Assembly: GCA_947492995.1 (NCBI GenBank)
Contig: CANLOU010000001.1
Location: 434,001-498,000 of the forward strand
Length of the DNA: 64,000 bases
Direction: 5' to 3'
Origin: an uncultured Litoreibacter sp.
Lineage (GTDB): Bacteria > Pseudomonadota > Alphaproteobacteria > Rhodobacterales > Rhodobacteraceae
Below are positions 31,079 through 38,675 of the stretch, piece by piece (positions within the stretch are counted from its first letter, which is position 1; each line of letters begins with the position of its first letter). The notes beneath the pieces were generated by a model. It was not told where the DNA came from and did not search any database. It worked only from the letters and a program-made list of their open reading frames with translations. The position numbers and the translations under genes were made by a program.

Positions 31079-31842
31079 CCGCGCAGCCTCGCTTGCAATG
31101 ACAACAGGTCGGCCCAGGCTTCCCGCTTGGCGCTTGGCATCCGCAACAAATAGGCCGGGTGGAACATCGGCAAAACGGGTTTGCCAAGCGCCTCCATCCA
31201 ATTGCCGCGCAGCTTGGTGATGCCTTTCTGCCCCAGAATGGCAGAGCACGAGATATTGCCCATCAGCACCAGCACTTCAGGGTTCACCAGTTCGATATGG
31301 CGCTCCACAAAGGGCAGCATCATAGCAATTTCGTCCGGCTTCGGGTCGCGGTTCTGCGGCGGGCGCCATGGCAGGATGTTGGTGATGTAGACGGGGTTAT
31401 CCGCGTGGTCGCGCCCATGGTCAATCGCCGCAAACATGGCGTCCAGCAGCTGCCCCGCCGCCCCCACAAAGGGCTTGCCCTGACGGTCCTCTTCGACGCC
31501 GGGGGCCTCGCCCACGATCATGACGCGCGCCTCAGGGTTGCCATCCGCAAACACCAAATTCCGCGCGCCTTTCTTTAATTCGCAATGCTCGAACCCGGCC
31601 ATAGCGGCCTGCAAAGCGTCCAAGTCCTGCGCGGCACCGGCGGCGGCCCGCGCCACTTGAGAGAAATCCACCTGCAGCGGCTGCATCGCCACCGGCGCCT
31701 CCGGCGCGGGGGTTTTGGGCTTGGGCTTCTGCGCAGGTTCTTCGTACCGGTTCACCGGCACTTCCCCGATCGCCTCGGTCGCGCCAAGGTCAATCTGCCA
31801 TTCCAGCATCGCTTTGGCCTGATGGTAGTCCAATGATTCCAT
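31075..31842 (-). CDS. Uracil-DNA glycosylase, family 4-like, with degenerate Fe-S site
   Basis: 255 residues with a Pro/Glu/Ala-rich N-terminal linker (about 30-55). Family 4/5 motifs: GEAPGVEED (111-119), [31 protein letters not shown], and HPAYLLR (228-234). Canonical family 4 enzymes have four Cys for a [4Fe-4S] cluster; here the CxxC position has F84...C87 and only C199 is elsewhere, so most ligands seem missing. It excises uracil from DNA. The moaB start overlaps its stop. Confidence 0.88.
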
Positions 31843-31938
31843 CTCCGCACTTTAGGCCCGCGCCCGACCCGCCACAATCGCGGCTTGTCCAAGCCCGCGC
31901 GCCTTTGCTATACCGCGTCGAACGGCGAAAGGGCTCAC

Positions 31939-32889
31939 ATGACATTCCGTGCGCAACACCTGTTGGGGATCGAGACGCTGTCCCCCGCTGACATCACCGA
32001 AATCCTTGATCTGGCGGACCAATACGTCACGCTGAACCGCTCTGACCGTAAGCATTCCGAGACGCTGGCGGGGCTGACCCAGATCAACATGTTCTTCGAG
32101 AACTCCACCCGCACGCAGGCCAGCTTTGAAATCGCGGGCAAGCGCCTTGGCGCGGATGTGATGAACATGGCGATGCAGGCCTCGTCGATCAAAAAGGGGG
32201 AAACTCTGATCGACACCGCCCTGACCCTGAACGCCATGCACCCCGACCTGCTGGTCGTGCGCCACCCGCATTCAGGCGCGGTGAACCTGCTGGCCGAAAA
32301 GGTGAACTGCGCCGTGCTGAACGCGGGCGACGGCAAGCACGAACACCCGACCCAAGCGCTGCTGGACGCGCTCACCATCCGCCGCGCCAAGGGGCGGCTG
32401 CACCGGCTGAACGTCGCCATCTGCGGCGACATTGCCCATTCCCGCGTGGCGCGGTCCAACATCTTGCTGCTTGGCAAAATGGAAAACCGCGTGCGCCTCG
32501 TCGGTCCCCCAACCCTGATGCCCTCCGAGATCGACCATTTCGGCGTCGAGGTGTTCGAGGACATGCGCGAGGGCCTTCAAGACGTCGATGTGGTGATGAT
32601 GTTGCGCCTGCAACGCGAGCGCATGGATGGCGGGTTTATCCCGTCAGAGCGCGAGTATTACCACCGCTACGGGCTGGACGCCGAGAAGCTGAGCCACGCC
32701 AAGCCGGACGCCATCGTCATGCACCCGGGCCCGATGAACCGCGGCGTGGAAATCGACGGCACCTTGGCCGACGACATCAACCGAAGCGTCATTCAGGAGC
32801 AGGTCGAAATGGGCGTCGCGGTGCGCATGGCCTGTATGGAACTGCTTGCAAACGCGCGGAAGGCCCAGCCGAAAGGCGTGATGGTGTGA
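31939..32889 (+). CDS. pyrB: Aspartate carbamoyltransferase catalytic subunit
   Basis: 316 residues from the ATG at 31939. Carbamoyl-phosphate loop [55 protein letters not shown] and the [12 protein letters not shown] end all match PyrB. First committed step of pyrimidine synthesis. No pyrI is seen; instead a PyrC'-like partner lies 2.3 kb downstream in the same run, as in dodecameric PyrB-PyrC' ATCases. The next gene overlaps its stop (GTGA). Confidence 0.97.
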
Positions 32890-33464
32890 GCGGCGGCCAT
32901 CATCCCGATTGGGACGGGATATTGGCCGCAGACGAATATCTCATTTGGCAAGGTGGCCCAAAACGTAACATGGTCCGAGAGGCGGTGTTGCTGGGGCTGG
33001 CAATTGCAAGCATGTGCTTTGTCGGGGGCAGCGTTTATTGGTTGTCGCATAAAGCGGACGGGATTTTAAGCGACTTCGCAGGTGTGCTGGCGCCTTTTGT
33101 ATTTGTCCTTACCCTTTGGGTTTGCTCCGCACTTGGGCGCGAACGGGCCAAGCGCGGCACCACTTACACGCTGACGAACAAACGCGCGTTCCTCGGCAAG
33201 CTGCCGATCTTTGGGAAGCGCAAGCTGTACCAATACCCAATTGCCCCCGAAAGCTATGTCGAATTGAAGCAAGGCGACCCGCCCTCAATAGAATTCAGCT
33301 ATCCAAAAAGGGACTTGAGCGGCACGCTTGGTCCAGAAAATCCTGATCGAGACGGACTATTGTTTGCACATGTTGAAGACGGCTTGGAGGTCTACAGGCT
33401 GATCCTGCGGGCACGACATGAAACGGCCTCAAAACAGGTTTCCACTGCTATTACAGACAGCTAG
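32886..33464 (+). CDS. Two-TM PH-like (bPH) membrane protein 1 of the pyrB-pyrC' interval
   Basis: 192 residues, GTG start overlapping the pyrB stop. Short cytoplasmic lead with [13 protein letters not shown], a W-x-G-x-P motif typical before bacterial PH-like (DUF304/bPH_2) domains. Then two hydrophobic segments (about 33-51 and 61-80) and a beta-rich domain opening with [15 protein letters not shown], the YxLTNKR signature of these domains. The two proteins after it have the same plan. Function unknown; the domain would lie at the inner membrane. GC is lower than in pyrB. Confidence 0.75.
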
Positions 33465-33473
33465 GATGTGGCG

Positions 33474-33944
33474 ATGGACAGCTTTAATGACAGCTCGGAC
33501 GAGGGCACGATCTGGCGCCCTTCTGGCAAGGTGTTCCTAAAGCGGGCGTTTCTGGCGTCGCTGATTACGGCTTTCTTCCTCAGCGGAGGCGGGCTGTTTC
33601 TAGACCTGTTCACCTTCGATCTGCGCGGCGCGTTGATCGCTTTGGCGATCTTGGCGCTGTCAGCCCTCTTCTACATGTTCATCTTCGATGAATTGCAGAA
33701 CTGGAACCGGCATCGCGGCGACGAATGGCGGCTGACCGACACAGCGATCGGGTATCGCAACACTGATGACAGCATGGTTTTCTTCGACCTGCCGCTGGTC
33801 GAGATCAAGCATATAAAACGATCCTTCTGGCGCGGCATTCGCATCCGCATGACCAACGGCCGCGCCTTTCATATGAGCTACCTGCCGAACGCAAAGGCGG
33901 TTCTGAAGCAGCTGCAGGACCAGCATGGACGGATGACCAAATGA
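33474..33944 (+). CDS. Two-TM PH-like membrane protein 2
   Basis: 156 residues from the ATG at 33474, with AGGA 7 bases upstream; a GTG at 33468 is too close to that site. Short N-terminus (GTIWRPSGKVFLKRA), two hydrophobic segments (about 26-46 and 50-70), then EWRLTDTAIGYRN and LVEIKHIKRSFWRGIRIRMT, a strand pattern like bPH domains, ending in a helix. The next gene overlaps its stop by 4 bases. Same architecture as its neighbours; function unknown. Confidence 0.72.
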   Translation: MDSFNDSSDEGTIWRPSGKVFLKRAFLASLITAFFLSGGGLFLDLFTFDLRGALIALAILALSALFYMFIFDELQNWNRHRGDEWRLTDTAIGYRNTDDSMVFFDLPLVEIKHIKRSFWRGIRIRMTNGRAFHMSYLPNAKAVLKQLQDQHGRMTK

Positions 33945-34474
33945 GCGCAGAGCTGCTTTGGGAAGGCCGACCTCATAACAAGATCCGTTGGGAATTTCGC
34001 GATAGGCGGGAATTCTGCATCTACTTGGGCCTCATCGCAGCGAGCCCAACATTCCTGCTGCTGGCAATTTACGTGTGGGGATGGTTCTTCAACTTGGCGT
34101 TTCTGACCTCGGTCTTCACGGTCATGTTCCTCCCATTCATCATATTTCGCCATCCATGGCGGGCCTTTCGGCGTCGCAAGCACAAATACAAGCTGACCTC
34201 GACCGCGGCCCATATCGAGCGGACCAACATGATGGGGATGCCAGTCTATGAAATCTACCCCATCACGCCCGAGATGAACATCCAGCTGGTCGAACGCTCC
34301 GGCCTGACCGATGTCTATTTCGGGAGACGCATCATCACCATAGAAACCACAGATAGCGGCAAAAAGCGCTACAATTGGGTGGAAGCAGGGTTCGAGTTGA
34401 TCCCCGACGGGCGGGCGGTATATCTCAAGATGTTGGAGCTACAGCTGGAGGTCGTCAGACATGGAAGACCCTAA
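33941..34474 (+). CDS. Two-TM PH-like membrane protein 3
   Basis: 177 residues, ATG overlapping the preceding stop (ATGA). AELLWEGRPHNKIRWEF again shows the W-x-G-x-P lead, followed by two hydrophobic segments (about 27-48 and 52-70), a very basic turn (RAFRRRKHKYKLTS) and a beta-rich domain with KYKLTSTAAHIERTN and YEIYPITPEMNIQL. The repeated W.G.P-TM-TM-YxLT layout in consecutive genes suggests old duplications and perhaps a hetero-oligomer. Confidence 0.72.
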   Translation: MSAELLWEGRPHNKIRWEFRDRREFCIYLGLIAASPTFLLLAIYVWGWFFNLAFLTSVFTVMFLPFIIFRHPWRAFRRRKHKYKLTSTAAHIERTNMMGMPVYEIYPITPEMNIQLVERSGLTDVYFGRRIITIETTDSGKKRYNWVEAGFELIPDGRAVYLKMLELQLEVVRHGRP

Positions 34475-34562
34475 AGACCCCCGCATGTCGGGCAAAATTG
34501 CGATGTACGCGCTGCTGCTGCTCTTTGGCTTCACCGGCTTTTTGATCTGGTTCGGCAGCTGA
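34461..34562 (+). CDS. 33-residue membrane microprotein
   Basis: Begins inside the end of the preceding gene (14-base overlap) and ends at a TGATG shared with the next start. Charged head MEDPKDPRMSGK, then one hydrophobic helix (IAMYALLLLFGFTGFLIWF) and a two-residue tail. The double coupling to its neighbours supports translation. Single-helix microproteins often bind larger membrane proteins; partners here would be the PH-like proteins. No family recognised. Confidence 0.6.
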   Translation: MEDPKDPRMSGKIAMYALLLLFGFTGFLIWFGS

Positions 34563-35098
34563 TGGCCCGCGCCCTGCTGCACGTCTTCGCCGTCAATGCA
34601 CAGATTGATGTGCGCCATACCTTCCTCAGCCGGTCCACCGGGCAAACCACCACTTTGCCCGATTTGGCGGGCTGGCTGTCGCTGCGTCAGGGCGGGTTGG
34701 ACACCGACAATATCGAGCTGTTTCCGGTGGATGATTTGGGGGATCTCAGGCTTGCCGACTATATCGCCACGGCATTTGATCCTCTGGACGCCGCCCTCAA
34801 GACAGCCGCCCCGAAATTGAACGCATTGGATGGCCATGTCCTGCTGGTGCCGCAAGCGGCCTTGGCGGGCGATTGGACGGCGGGGGCCGACCTCACCTTG
34901 GTCGACAGCCTGCCTTTGGCGGTTGCCGATCACGTCGCCGAGCCGTTGGAGACAGAGGCCGCGACCTACGGACAACCGTCGCAGGACCACATTGGCTGGC
35001 ATCAAAAGACCACGGGGCGCAGGCACAAGGCGTTTGGTGCATTTGCGGTGTTCATCGTTTTGGTCTGCGTGCTGCTCATTCTGGCGGCGATGGGGTAG
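34562..35098 (+). CDS. Tail-anchored protein of the pyrB-pyrC' interval
   Basis: 178 residues. A soluble region of about 145 residues (VFAVNAQIDVRHTFLSRSTG, LPDLAGWLSLRQGGLDTDNI) with no motif I recognise, then a basic stretch (KTTGRRHKAFG) and one C-terminal hydrophobic helix (AFAVFIVLVCVLLILAAM). The topology puts the domain in the cytoplasm with a C-terminal anchor. Translationally coupled to the microprotein. 71 bases with a small hairpin separate it from pyrC'. Confidence 0.65.
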   Translation: MARALLHVFAVNAQIDVRHTFLSRSTGQTTTLPDLAGWLSLRQGGLDTDNIELFPVDDLGDLRLADYIATAFDPLDAALKTAAPKLNALDGHVLLVPQAALAGDWTAGADLTLVDSLPLAVADHVAEPLETEAATYGQPSQDHIGWHQKTTGRRHKAFGAFAVFIVLVCVLLILAAMG

Positions 35099-35126
35099 CG
35101 CGTGATCCCATTTGCCAAACCCTGCC

Positions 35127-35145
35127 CGCCCGTGCGAAACGGGCG
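35127..35145 (+). promoter_or_regulatory. Stem-loop ahead of pyrC'
   Basis: CGCCCGT-GCGAA-ACGGGCG, a 7-bp perfect stem 24 bases before the pyrC' ATG, in the only sizeable gap (71 bases) between pyrB and DUF805-1. No U-tract follows. It could modulate processing or translation of pyrC'. Confidence 0.5.
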
Positions 35146-35169
35146 AAACGTTAAGAAAGGCCCTTGCCG

Positions 35170-36459
35170 ATGTTGCTGCTGACCAACGCCATATTGATCG
35201 ACCCCGCGCGGGGAACCGAGGAAAATGGCGTGGTGCTTATCAAGGATGGGCGGATTAACGAAATCTTACCGCAAGATGTTGATCTGTCAGACAAAAAGAG
35301 GTTCCCCGCGGGGAACCGCATCGACTGTGGCGGCAAATATCTGGCCCCCGGCATTGTCGATATAGGTGTTAAAGTTTGCGAGCCCGGCGAGCGTCACAAG
35401 GAAAGTTTCCGCACCGCCGGACAGGCCGCTGCCGCCGGTGGGGTGACCACCATGGTGACCCGCCCCGACACAATCCCGACAGTTGACACCCCCGAAACGT
35501 TGGAGTTTGCCAAACGTCGCGGAGCCGAGATGACGGATGTGCGCATTGCGCCCATGGCATCCCTGACCAAAGCCCGCGAAGGGCGCGAGATGGTCGAGAT
35601 GGGGTTCTTGCGCGACGCGGGCGCCGTGGCCTTTTCTGATGGCGACAACGTCGTCACCAACACCAAAGTGCTAAGCCGCGCGATGGTCTACGCGCGTTCG
35701 CTGGACGCGCTGGTGATGGGCCATCCGCAGGAACCGATCCTCAGCGACGGGGCCGCCGTGACATCCGGCAAGTTCGGTTCCCTGCGGGGACTTCCGGGCG
35801 TCTCGCCCTTGGCCGAGCGTATGGGGCTGGAACGCGATCTGGCCTTGGTCGAGGCCACGAAAGTGCGCTACCACGCCGACCAGATTTCCTCCGCCGCAGC
35901 TCTTCCCGCTTTGGCCCGCGCGAAACAGGCCGGATTGGATGTCACCGCTGGCGTGTCGATCCACCACCTGACGCTGAACGAATTGGACGTGGGCGACTAC
36001 CGCACCTTCTTCAAAGTGAAGCCGCCCCTGCGCAGCGAAGAGGACCGGCTTGCGATGGTCGAGGCCGTGGCAAGCGGCTTGATCGACATCATCTGTTCCA
36101 TGCACACGCCGCAAGACGAAGAAAGCAAACGCCTGCCCTATGAGCAGGCCGCGTCCGGCGCGGTCGGGCTGGAGACATTGCTGCCCGCCGCGCTGCGGCT
36201 GTTTCATGCAGGGCAGCTGGATTTGCCGACCCTGTTCCGCGCGATGTCCCTGAACCCGGCCAAGCGGCTGGGCTTGGAGGGTGGCCGCATGGAAGCAGGC
36301 GCGCCTGCTGATCTGGTGCTGTTTGATGCAGGCGCTCCGTTTGTCATGGACCGCGAGACGTTGAAGTCCAAATCCAAGAACACGCCCTTTGACGGGCAGC
36401 GCATGCAGGGGCGGGTGCTGCGCACCTTTGTTGCGGGCCAAGAGGTTTACGCGACCTGA
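35170..36459 (+). CDS. pyrC: Dihydroorotase homologue lacking metal ligands (PyrC'-like)
   Basis: 429 residues from the ATG at 35170 (AAGAAAGG upstream). Amidohydrolase fold of the dihydroorotase family, but the usual DxHxH is DIGVKVCEPG, with G66 and K68 in place of both His, and the TDHAPH motif reads SMHTPQ (310-315), with Met311 for the metal Asp. AFSDGD (154-159), the His in VMGHPQEP and the one in VRYHADQ remain. Catalysis by the normal binuclear mechanism looks impossible. Inactive PyrC' proteins in pseudomonads support PyrB assembly; the same role is inferred here. A true dihydroorotase should exist elsewhere. Usually annotated simply as pyrC. Confidence 0.9.
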   Translation: MLLLTNAILIDPARGTEENGVVLIKDGRINEILPQDVDLSDKKRFPAGNRIDCGGKYLAPGIVDIGVKVCEPGERHKESFRTAGQAAAAGGVTTMVTRPDTIPTVDTPETLEFAKRRGAEMTDVRIAPMASLTKAREGREMVEMGFLRDAGAVAFSDGDNVVTNTKVLSRAMVYARSLDALVMGHPQEPILSDGAAVTSGKFGSLRGLPGVSPLAERMGLERDLALVEATKVRYHADQISSAAALPALARAKQAGLDVTAGVSIHHLTLNELDVGDYRTFFKVKPPLRSEEDRLAMVEAVASGLIDIICSMHTPQDEESKRLPYEQAASGAVGLETLLPAALRLFHAGQLDLPTLFRAMSLNPAKRLGLEGGRMEAGAPADLVLFDAGAPFVMDRETLKSKSKNTPFDGQRMQGRVLRTFVAGQEVYAT

Positions 36460-37070
36460 TGCCCGAGATTGTGACCTCCCTGCCGTTGCTGTTGATAACG
36501 GGCGTCTTGGCCTACCTGCTGGGGTCGGTGCCCTTTGGATTGGTCATCACCAAGGCGTTCGGCTTGGGCAATCTGCGCGAGATCGGGTCGGGCAATATCG
36601 GGGCCACGAATGTGCTGCGCACCGGATCAAAGCCCGCCGCCCTTGCGACGCTGCTGCTGGATTCGGGCAAAGGCGCGATTGCGGTGCTGGCGGCCCGGTT
36701 CATGGTCGGCGAAGATGCCGCGCAATTGGCGGGGTTGATGGCGTTTCTGGGCCACCTGTTCCCGGTCTGGCTGGGCTTCAAAGGCGGCAAGGGGGTCGCG
36801 ACCTATCTTGGCACGCTTCTGGCATTGTCGTTCCCCGCGGGGATCGCGGCCTGCCTGACGTGGTTGCTGGTGGCGGCAATTTTCCGAATTTCGTCCCTGT
36901 CCGCTTTGGTCGCCGCCGTGGCGATGCCTGTGGCGTTGATCGGGCTGGGGCGGAGCGACATGGTCATGCTGGCCATCGCGCTGGGCGCGTTGATCTGGGT
37001 GCGACATGCGGGCAATATCCGGCGCATCGCAAACGGGACGGAAGCCAAGATCGGCAACAAGGGCAAGTAG
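36459..37070 (+). CDS. plsY: Glycerol-3-phosphate acyltransferase PlsY
   Basis: 203 residues, start overlapping the pyrC' stop (TGATG). Multi-pass membrane enzyme with the PlsY motifs GSVPFGLVITKAFGLGNLRE, IGSGNIGATNVLR, LLLDSGKGAIAV, GHLFPVWLGFKGGKGVATYLG. It transfers acyl groups from acyl-phosphate to glycerol-3-phosphate, the first step of phospholipid synthesis. pyrC-plsY adjacency is common in Rhodobacterales. DUF805-1 begins 2 bases later. Confidence 0.96.
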   Translation: MPEIVTSLPLLLITGVLAYLLGSVPFGLVITKAFGLGNLREIGSGNIGATNVLRTGSKPAALATLLLDSGKGAIAVLAARFMVGEDAAQLAGLMAFLGHLFPVWLGFKGGKGVATYLGTLLALSFPAGIAACLTWLLVAAIFRISSLSALVAAVAMPVALIGLGRSDMVMLAIALGALIWVRHAGNIRRIANGTEAKIGNKGK

Positions 37071-37071
37071 G

Positions 37072-37497
37072 ATGGGATTCTCGGACGCCGTTAAGACCTG
37101 CTTAACCAAATACATCACTGTGTCCGGCCGCGCGTCGCGGTCGGAATACTGGTGGTTCTTCTTGTTCTATAATTTGGCTGTCCTGGCAGCCTTCATCATC
37201 CTCATGATTACGGTGGACGAGAATGGCGAAGAGGGCACCTTTTGGCCCTTCTTCATGGTCGTTTTCGGACTGTTTTTTCCAATGCTGGCGGTAACCGCGC
37301 GGCGGTTGCATGACAAGGGGCTGACGGCTTGGGTCATCTTGATAAGCTTCGTGCCATTCGGAGCATTGGCGCTGCTGATCTTGTGCATGCTGCCCGGTGA
37401 CGAGGGTGCAAACGGCTATGGCCCACCGCCAATTTCGAACGATGAAACAGCGAATTACGCCAAATCCAACATCCCCAATGTGCGCGACGACGACTAG
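37072..37497 (+). CDS. DUF805 membrane protein 1
   Basis: 141 residues from the ATG at 37072 (GGCAAGTAGG upstream). The N-terminal amphipathic head MGFSDAVKTCLTKYITVSGR leads to the DUF805 signature ASRSEYWWFFLFYN, three or four hydrophobic segments, and the second signature ARRLHDKGLTAW. DUF805 has no known function. First of three consecutive members; only 1 base separates it from plsY. Confidence 0.88.
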   Translation: MGFSDAVKTCLTKYITVSGRASRSEYWWFFLFYNLAVLAAFIILMITVDENGEEGTFWPFFMVVFGLFFPMLAVTARRLHDKGLTAWVILISFVPFGALALLILCMLPGDEGANGYGPPPISNDETANYAKSNIPNVRDDD

Positions 37498-37600
37498 CTA
37501 ACGTTAACGTCAATTCCCGAAAATTGACCCCTTTACTGCACAGTTCTGCCTGATTTCAGAAGCATTTTGACCCTGAGTAAACTTGCTACAGGACAAAATG

Positions 37601-38230
37601 ATGGGCCCGCTTGCCGCCACAAGATCAGTGTTTCGCAACTATGCCACCATGTCGGGGCGCGCGTCGCGCTCGGAATACTGGTGGTGGGCGCTGGTTCAGG
37701 GGCTGGTCGTGGTCACGTTGTTCGCCATCGTGGCCTCAGACCCGGATGCCAGCGCTCCCAGCATGTCCGCCCTTATCGCTGGTGTGGCGCTGGGGATTTT
37801 CGCCCTCGCCACCTTCGTCCCCAACATCACGGTCATGGTAAGACGCCTGCATGACACCGGCCGATCCGGCGCGTGGTACTTCATCACGTTCGTTCCTGTT
37901 ATCGGCGGCATCTGGTTTCTGATCCTTATGCTGATCGGATCCGAGCAGCAGGCGAACCGGTTCGGTGGGCCGCCCAAATCGGACGGCTCAGCACCGTCAG
38001 GCCCGATCCGCAGCCGCGCCCCGTCAGACGACATCTATAGCCGCGAGGACGTGTCAAACGCCTATGTCGCGGCCTACACCACCGACCCAAGGGTTGCCGC
38101 CATGCGCAAAGCCGCAGCGGAAGGTGGTGAGATCGGCGGGGACTTCGCGGCGCAGCGCAAAGCTGAAATCAGCGACTATTACAAAAACAACGTGCTGGGC
38201 GGAGGTCGCTCGGCACCCAGCCCCCACTAA
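37601..38230 (+). CDS. DUF805 membrane protein 2
   Basis: 209 residues from the ATG at 37601 (AGGA 7 bases upstream; an ATG at 37598 is also possible). GRASRSEYWWWALVQG and RRLHDTGRSGAWYFI are the family signatures. It has a long soluble C-terminal tail (about 80 residues: polar, with YSREDVSNAYVAAYTTDPRV and DYYKNNVLGG), absent from its neighbours. The 5' coding region is nearly identical to that of DUF805-1 over the SEYWW segment. Confidence 0.85.
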   Translation: MGPLAATRSVFRNYATMSGRASRSEYWWWALVQGLVVVTLFAIVASDPDASAPSMSALIAGVALGIFALATFVPNITVMVRRLHDTGRSGAWYFITFVPVIGGIWFLILMLIGSEQQANRFGGPPKSDGSAPSGPIRSRAPSDDIYSREDVSNAYVAAYTTDPRVAAMRKAAAEGGEIGGDFAAQRKAEISDYYKNNVLGGGRSAPSPH

Positions 38231-38264
38231 CCTGTTTCTGAGTATCGAGTAGAGAGTTCTCCCA

Positions 38265-38675
38265 ATGATTTACGTAACGACCCATTTAGGCAACGGCGTG
38301 TTGAAGCAATTCAGCTTTGCCGGACGCACCGGCAGAGCCGAGTTCTGGACCTTTTTCGCGGCCAACCTCGTGATGTTTTTAGCCTGTCTTGGAGCGGCCA
38401 GCCTGATGTCAGGGGCTGCGGCAACAAGCCTGACCGCCATTGGCATTGTGGTGATGAGTTTCGGCAATCTGGCAAGCGGCGTCCGCCGCCTGCATGACAC
38501 CAACCGGTCGGGGTGGTGGATCGCCACGCTTATACTGCCGGTCATGGCGTTTGTGCTGCTTTACTTCTTTGCGAAGCCCGGCGTCAGCGGCCCGACCCGC
38601 TTTGACGACGCAGGCGGCATGCCGGAGCGCACGCCTGACCACTTTACCCGCGCGGGAGAGCAGCGGCTGGCTTAG
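38265..38675 (+). CDS. DUF805 membrane protein 3
   Basis: 136 residues. More divergent: FSFAGRTGRAEFWTFFAANL instead of GRASRSEYWW, three hydrophobic segments, then VRRLHDTNRSGWWIA and a short polar tail. The convergent gshA gene shares 4 bases with its stop. Probably arose by duplication with the two upstream copies. Confidence 0.85.
   Translation: MIYVTTHLGNGVLKQFSFAGRTGRAEFWTFFAANLVMFLACLGAASLMSGAAATSLTAIGIVVMSFGNLASGVRRLHDTNRSGWWIATLILPVMAFVLLYFFAKPGVSGPTRFDDAGGMPERTPDHFTRAGEQRLA

Follow-up and report, generated by a model that had tools for sequence, protein, structure and literature searches.

In Pseudomonas aeruginosa, a catalytically inactive chain of the PyrC' type is needed for the activity of aspartate transcarbamoylase (ATCase), according to the abstract of PMC7053772. 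Membrane proteins of the PH type have been described in other settings. The ydbST genes of Bacillus subtilis are controlled by sigma-W, and their transcript runs on into acpS (PMC3498285); the PH-domain proteins DdE and DdF are required for export of enterocin DD14 (PMC8657885). As far as these two accounts go, PH-type proteins are paired there in envelope or export tasks, and no tie to pyrB is mentioned. PuhB, finally, is called a putative assembly factor in the part of PMC6052148 that treats it. Here we consider a locus in a stretch of 64,000 nucleotides from an uncultured Litoreibacter sp. (contig CANLOU010000001.1, positions 434,001 to 498,000; the whole stretch is called the window), where five small genes for membrane proteins lie between pyrB and pyrC'. 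The order pyrB–module–pyrC'–plsY recurs across Rhodobacteraceae, with module genes of five classes, A to E. We suggest tentatively, and at well under even confidence, that the products may assemble in the membrane, with their soluble parts towards the cytoplasm, into a complex by which the PyrB–PyrC' ATCase is docked or tuned.

The genes of the locus are as follows (positions are those of the window; ORF, open reading frame; TM, transmembrane; aa, amino acids).

31939..32889, + strand: pyrB, aspartate carbamoyltransferase catalytic chain, anchor gene (412.6 bits on NF002032; cut-off, 263)
32886..33464, + strand: ORF1, class A, two-TM PuhB-like/bPH protein of 192 aa, GTG start
33474..33944, + strand: ORF2, class B, two-TM bPH-like protein of 156 aa (158 aa if it starts at the GTG at 33468)
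33941..34474, + strand: ORF3, class A, two-TM PuhB-like/bPH protein of 177 aa
34461..34562, + strand: ORF4, class E, single-TM microprotein of 33 aa (MEDPKDPRMSGK...; alignments A5 and A9)
34562..35098, + strand: ORF5, class D, tail-anchored protein of 178 aa with an alpha/beta domain, fold without a match
35170..36459, + strand: pyrC', dihydroorotase-like chain without the H-x-H motif, anchor gene (alignment to 3d6n/6gdd)
36459..37070, + strand: plsY, glycerol-3-phosphate acyltransferase, a neighbour outside the module (TIGR00023, 169.4 bits against 137.2)

That five genes occupy the interval had been proposed in an original prediction made from the letters of the window, and the sequence and the list of open reading frames bear this out. 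(The longer, TTG-start version of pyrB in that list is disregarded here.) ORF1 overlaps pyrB by 4 base pairs (bp) and ORF2 begins 9 bp past ORF1; ORF3, ORF4 and ORF5 overlap the preceding gene by 4, 14 and 1 bp, respectively, and 71 bp separate ORF5 from pyrC'. All five are on the strand of pyrB. A W-x-G-x-P motif had been seen in two of the first three genes; it is present in ORF1 (WQGGP) and ORF3 (WEGRP) and missing from ORF2. Hydropathy gives two segments each in ORF1 to ORF3, with YTLT, WRLT and YKLT downstream of them, respectively, matching the predicted YxLT/WRLT after two TM helices; ORF5 has one C-terminal segment. The genes had been called undescribed; none of ORF1 to ORF5 reaches the cut-off of any Pfam or NCBIfam model, and in Pfam all members of the wider classes A to D stay below it as well. 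No RNA family reaches its gathering threshold between 31000 and 38500, and the single promoter-like site between 31800 and 37100 is on the opposite strand, against 1.3 expected by chance over that interval as a whole. Terminator-like hairpins over the same 31800-37100 number 11, against a mean of 5.6 expected (standard deviation, 2.4): three are on the coding strand, at 33080 (ORF1), 35616 and 36187 (both pyrC'), and the other eight, all of them minus-strand, fall within the ORF3, ORF5 and pyrC' coding sequences.

The recurrence of the module was followed in several sets of genomes. A hand-chosen set comprised 55 genomes, 20 of the same genus, 21 with matches to ORF3 or ORF2 and 14 without, and counts from it are biased. 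Of these genomes 53 have pyrB; 52 loci, each of pyrB plus up to 5 kilobases (kb), were fetched (G028, at a contig end, was omitted), to which the source genome was added. A family-wide set (149 genomes, one per genus) and a genus set were drawn automatically. A named set came from 84,980 genomes of named species, queried with a class A profile made from members linked to pyrB; it holds the best 80 of 202 relatives and is non-random. Its loci are labelled Rhodobacteraceae or bear genus names (Shimia, Roseovarius, Thalassovita, Maritimibacter, Mameliella, Pseudooceanicola and others) that we take to belong to that family; a few are labelled only Alphaproteobacteria or Paracoccaceae.

At least one gene of classes A to E is found between pyrB and pyrC' in 47 of the 53 loci, which were partly chosen by matches to ORF2 or ORF3, and in 16 of 18 same-genus loci. 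In the named set both flanking genes are visible at 74 of the 80 loci, and module genes lie between them in all 74; four of the other six are truncated at contig ends, and the remaining two (L095 and L100) are taken up below. Synteny, which had been put forward as a check on the original prediction, is thus upheld at the level of gene classes. In one locus (L093) the class A gene is found upstream of pyrB, and the interval is occupied by a gene of class B. The 74 named loci hold 213 module genes, none on the opposite strand, in 25 arrangements, of which D-C-A is the commonest (13 loci); D is usually first (34) and A usually last (58). Adjacent genes overlap by exactly 4 bp at 70 of 129 called junctions and overlap or lie within 20 bp at 115, a count that drops genes without a called start (16 rows) and in which a few misassigned starts produce some long gaps or overlaps. 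The layout as one unit, as originally proposed, is borne out by these junctions. The exact A-B-A-E-D set of the window recurs in none of the 52 other hand-chosen loci and none of the 74 named ones. Absence from close relatives had been named as grounds for giving up the idea, and here the outcome is divided: the exact five-gene set is missing even within the genus, and the classes persist.

Some particulars of these loci should be noted. In the iterated census of the 53 loci the B and C profiles merged, leaving the B and C labels soft; the named set was read with separate seeds. Offsets in L053 are shifted, the locus having been read past the pyrB stop, and L082, in which pyrB and pyrC' form one frame, was excluded from the list of interval ORFs. 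In two genera, similar proteins of about 325-375 aa lie between a class A gene and pyrC': in L056 (3172-4149) and in L064 (2544-3671 of the reverse complement); that of L056 is a DUF4268 protein (E 2e-25; E, expectation value). In L076, from a genus without recognised module genes, a 158-aa interval protein (1396-1869) is predicted to have two TM segments, matches nothing in Pfam and is perhaps a further diverged module class. One assembly (G053, C5 and C10) has two copies of pyrB, with a separate class D gene after each.

Across the 149 genera the module genes are closely confined to pyrB, which is found in 145 genomes at E≤1e-60. Class D is present in 78 genomes, and all of its 80 matches are on the pyrB strand, 0-1967 bp downstream of that gene. 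All 60 class C matches, in 59 genomes (the weakest three probably belong to class B), are likewise downstream on the pyrB strand, as are 30 of the 31 class E matches, in 30 genomes, the exception being weak (E 1e-4). For class A at E≤1e-20, a cut chosen after inspection of the match list, 40 of 41 matches are downstream of pyrB on its strand and the last is on a contig that lacks pyrB. C, D, E or strong A is present in 108 of the 149 genera; ORF2 as a single query for class B found matches in 10 of the 149 genomes. Class D is associated across genera with C (Fisher p 1.7e-4) and with E (p 7.8e-6, partly built in since fused E is counted), kinship being uncorrected in both. Among 289 genomes from across Alphaproteobacteria, class D gave five matches, four within Rhodobacteraceae; the fifth, in another family, has E 5.1e-5 and an internal stop, and is taken as spurious. 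In these samples, then, the module is specific to Rhodobacteraceae. A tblastn search of plasmids with one class A member found no match.

ORF1 and ORF3 belong to class A (profile E 2.7e-46 and 1.2e-40, both being rows of the profile's alignment; for ORF3 also alignment A1), and ORF2 to class B (alignment A2). ORF3 as a single query finds relatives at 26-34% identity. The PuhB model NF040894, whose cut-off is 110 bits, matches ORF1 over residues 13-102 (E 3.1e-4, 20.7 bits) and other class A proteins from L084 (residues 10-102, E 3.6e-8, 33.5 bits; the L062 protein is identical) and L072 (25.9 bits); it does not match ORF2 or ORF3. The source genome has a true PuhB at another locus (243.2 bits on the same model), and the class A profile matches that puhB locus at E 9.3e-13. 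Because of these matches under the cut-off and the match to the genome's own puhB, class A is, on profile evidence, remote kin of PuhB and not PuhB itself: the ORF1 to ORF3, L062, L072 and L084 proteins all stay below the 110 bits of the equivalog, and 40 of the 41 strong class A matches sit downstream of pyrB instead of beside puhA in a photosynthesis gene cluster.

The AlphaFold model of ORF1 (pLDDT, the predicted local distance difference test, 85.0; pTM, the predicted template modelling score, 0.75; 95 sequences) has two long helices (30-54 and 62-90) ahead of a beta domain and closes with another long helix. The 12 best Foldseek matches are PH or PH-like (probability up to 0.99, best E only 0.027); eight carry PH naming in their titles, and the other four we presume to be of that kind. 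The model therefore supports a PH-like fold for ORF1, weakly by E-value. A similar fold would be expected for ORF3 from its shared class, and for ORF2 from the link between the class B and class A profiles (E 1.1e-5, probability 82%). Class B is also linked to class C (E 1.6e-13, probability 98%), while the direct link of A to C covers only 27 columns (E 3.7e-4, probability 37%). These results lend support to the architecture of the original prediction, TM helices with a PH-like domain. By hydropathy, classes A and B mostly have two TM segments and class C, a group of bPH/PuhB-like membrane proteins absent from the window locus, one or two. No class passes the gathering score of a Pfam bPH family: one of 27 class A members matches bPH_3, at E 0.022, and no bPH match at E≤0.1 was seen among 9 members of class B and 16 of class C. 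Class A gave nothing meaningful against profiles of solved structures.

Classes D and E are without named relatives in the libraries searched. The model of ORF5 (pLDDT 81.5, pTM 0.65, 58 sequences) consists of a small alpha/beta domain, followed by a linker of low confidence and a helix at the tail. Compared with PDB and viral structures, its fold has no match with E below 1, and against solved-structure profiles the best for class D is an entry "E8" (E 0.0051), with no single stretch passing. Mean column identity in class E, at 64-70%, exceeds that in the other four alignments (35-54% for A to D), and seven columns are invariant in an alignment of 26 sequences. Its profile has 16 matches, in 16 genera, that lie in frame at the C-terminal end of class D genes (e.g., ...PSDAAMSGRIATLALLVMALLVGLMIWVAG); the frame was read in 14 newly fetched loci and in L049 and L069. 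Five class D proteins of the named set also match class E in the tail, at E 4e-10 or better. Where a separate E lies alongside, in two sets of loci, the tails of the D proteins have no E match below E 0.1; by this comparison, D beside a free-standing E has a different anchor, the ORF5 of the window included. Because class E matches sit in frame as the tail anchors of D, ORF4 is apparently the free-standing form of that anchor. In-frame D–E fusion and fission speaks well for D and E working together. E is found near pyrB without D in three genera, and alone between pyrB and pyrC' in two same-genus members.

Selection was gauged by pN/pS, the ratio of non-synonymous to synonymous differences per site, in nine same-genus pairs; the method is one of simple counting, synonymous sites are partly saturated, and the pairs share members and are not independent. 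The ratio is 0.03-0.08 for pyrB and 0.06-0.18 for pyrC'. Class E, with only 33-34 codons, gives 0.00-0.26, and class D, in eight of the pairs, 0.17-0.48. Class E is under purifying selection almost matching that on pyrB and pyrC' in strength. The gene set nevertheless turns over within the genus. The nearest relative, with a pyrB 97% identical, has A-E-D, not A-B-A-E-D, and its A is 34% identical to ORF3; one locus (L047) has a 68-aa class A remnant and another (L036) a class A gene split over two frames, both excluded from the alignments. From the pN/pS values, the varying gene sets and the class A remnants, it follows that the module is selected where present, yet dispensable and fast-changing. 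This turnover, the D–E fission and fusion and the PuhB kinship go beyond the original prediction.

Of the flanking genes, pyrC' passes TIGR00857 (300.1 bits; cut-off, 279.05), and its best NCBIfam match, PRK09059, stays under that model's cut-off (521.8 bits; cut-off, 645). It aligns near full-length to the dihydroorotase of known structure 3d6n/6gdd, which we take to be that of Aquifex. The H-x-H motif of dihydroorotase is metal-binding. Because G-x-K stands at its position, the product looks like a pseudoenzyme of the PyrC' kind, as originally proposed, and pyrB with a dihydroorotase-like gene lacking the metal motif makes this an ATCase–pseudo-dihydroorotase operon. The spacing of pyrB and pyrC' ranges from 6 to 3013 bp in 52 loci with separate genes. 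In L082 (from G017; reverse complement, about 204-2531), one continuous reading frame covers both PyrB and the pseudo-dihydroorotase. This natural fusion, 775 residues long when counted from where the pyrB match starts, comes with no recognised module genes; a single frame is consistent with the two acting as a complex. The gene plsY follows pyrC' in 49 of 52 loci, a contig end explaining two of the three exceptions, and does so also in G163 and G156, same-genus members with a pyrB–pyrC' interval of 6 bp. The proposal that the module couples nucleotide to phospholipid synthesis through plsY was therefore dropped: plsY is there with or without the module. The original prediction is thus supported in its architecture, operon layout and synteny and not supported in its phospholipid coupling. 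After plsY, three consecutive DUF805 membrane proteins occupy 37072-38672 of the window (E 6.5e-27, 3.3e-31 and 2.6e-21).

How might such a module act? From topology, the soluble parts (the PH-like domains of A, B and C and the alpha/beta domain of D) would face the cytoplasm. A, B or C may use their TM helices to pack against D and E, forming a hetero-oligomer, and D, or D with the PH domains, could bind the PyrB–PyrC' ATCase. Dihydroorotate dehydrogenase is membrane-bound and quinone-linked. The ATCase complex might in this way be placed at the inner membrane, perhaps near that enzyme; alternatively, the assembly or activity of PyrB–PyrC' could depend on the state of the membrane. The module would tune rather than enable PyrB–PyrC', because genomes without it run the pair unaided. 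In favour of docking or tuning of this kind are a linkage to pyrB that is kept despite shuffled order and copy number, the close packing of the genes, the D–E fusions, the purifying selection on E, the single PyrB–PyrC' frame of G017, the need for the inactive chain in P. aeruginosa and the likeness of ORF1 to PuhB, a putative assembly factor. The fuller proposal, of a dedicated Rhodobacteraceae-specific apparatus that recruits or regulates ATCase at the inner membrane with swappable PH-type scaffolds and a tail-anchored adaptor whose 33-residue anchor can split off, seems to us doubtful.

Several observations weigh against a role on PyrB. A conserved neighbourhood in a pyr operon is weak proof of shared function: location alone does not suffice, since plsY adjoins pyrC' irrespective of the module. 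Up to 41 of the 149 genera lack strong A, C, D and E (class B and weak A being uncounted), and two of the 18 same-genus members with pyrB have no module genes. L095 and L100 have pyrC' and module genes with no pyrB detected within 5 kb upstream. Weaker class A matches occur at other sites in the 149 genomes; these are presumably PuhB, as checked in the source genome only. Class D diverges much faster than PyrB, which would be surprising in a protein that docks onto a conserved surface, and class A is associated across genera neither with D (Fisher p 1.0) nor with C (p 0.56; kinship uncorrected in both); together these argue against a tight, fixed machine. The C-terminal tails of PyrB cannot be told apart by eye between carriers and non-carriers of the module.

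The foremost alternative, which we also consider rather unlikely, is that these are passenger genes of membrane homeostasis, a bPH envelope or lipid module comparable to YdbS/YdbT of Bacillus, using the growth-linked expression of the pyr operon and unrelated to PyrB and PyrC'. The TM plus PH-like fold, the fast evolution and frequent loss would all suit it, as would plsY, a neighbour that persists here independently of the module. The ydbST transcript of B. subtilis reaches acpS (PMC3498285). A placing of bPH genes next to lipid genes is thus not unique to the pyr locus. Against the passenger reading, D, C, E and strong A stay in the pyrB interval even as they reshuffle and multiply there, with only the two off-site matches given above (the weak E and the A on a pyrB-less contig) in 149 genomes. 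A second possibility, distinctly improbable, is that class A helps to insert or assemble a membrane complex, as PuhB may do for the photosynthetic reaction centre, with D and E as partners and the pyr operon as a mere host. The matches of NF040894 to ORF1 and another class A member and of the class A profile to the genome's own puhB point that way, but all class A scores are far under the PuhB cut-off, and no client complex was noticed nearby, without a systematic search. Neutral local expansion, by tandem duplication and decay of dispensable, vertically inherited genes whose linkage only means that they never moved, is less probable still. The class A remnant and split gene within the genus and the 6-bp intervals of G163 and G156 are what it would predict, but the purifying selection on E, weaker on D, and the presence of the module in 108 of 149 genera speak against it. 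Least credible by far is a cassette for export of or immunity to a small peptide, like those of leaderless bacteriocins, with PH-domain proteins serving a short unprocessed peptide (E): a short peptide does lie beside PH-type proteins here as well, but E is highly conserved and part of D in 16 genera, no ABC-transporter-like gene was seen on inspection of the interval ORFs of 52 loci (without a profile scan of every ORF), and PADLOC gives one match, at E 0.056, among eight proteins. Origin in defence or phage is likewise not supported by the same eight proteins, which have no match to a PADLOC defence-protein model beyond that one and none in PHROGs.

Should a PyrB-docking or PyrB-tuning complex prove right, de novo pyrimidine synthesis would be organised at the membrane in these bacteria. 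Without a link to PyrB, the locus would still be a natural series in which PH-type membrane proteins are gained, lost, fused and split. It holds protein classes that reach the cut-off of no model in the libraries searched, widespread in an abundant marine family and with one firm context, the ATCase operon, and a conserved 33-residue microprotein that can be explained as the detached tail anchor of its neighbour. No description of a pyrB–module–pyrC' locus was found in the literature, subscription journals being largely outside the coverage.

In closing, we return to the described systems. YdbS and YdbT are bPH proteins. With them and with DdE/DdF, the module shares the predicted ORF1 plan of a TM pair followed by a PH-like domain and the presence of several differing members side by side; it differs in being tied to pyrB, in that A to C stay under the Pfam bPH cut-offs, and in including D and E, of which we know no counterpart in either system. 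With PuhB, class A detectably shares the profile of the N-terminal and TM region, but at 20.7-33.5 bits against 110 and outside the photosynthesis cluster. The module as a whole was matched to no known system; A to C are building blocks of the bPH/PuhB kind. It comes near the PyrB–PyrC' complex of P. aeruginosa in that an ATCase and a dihydroorotase-like chain without H-x-H flank it, whereas the abstract of PMC7053772 names no membrane component. Set beside that complex, the membrane module is an addition, and in these samples one of Rhodobacteraceae only.

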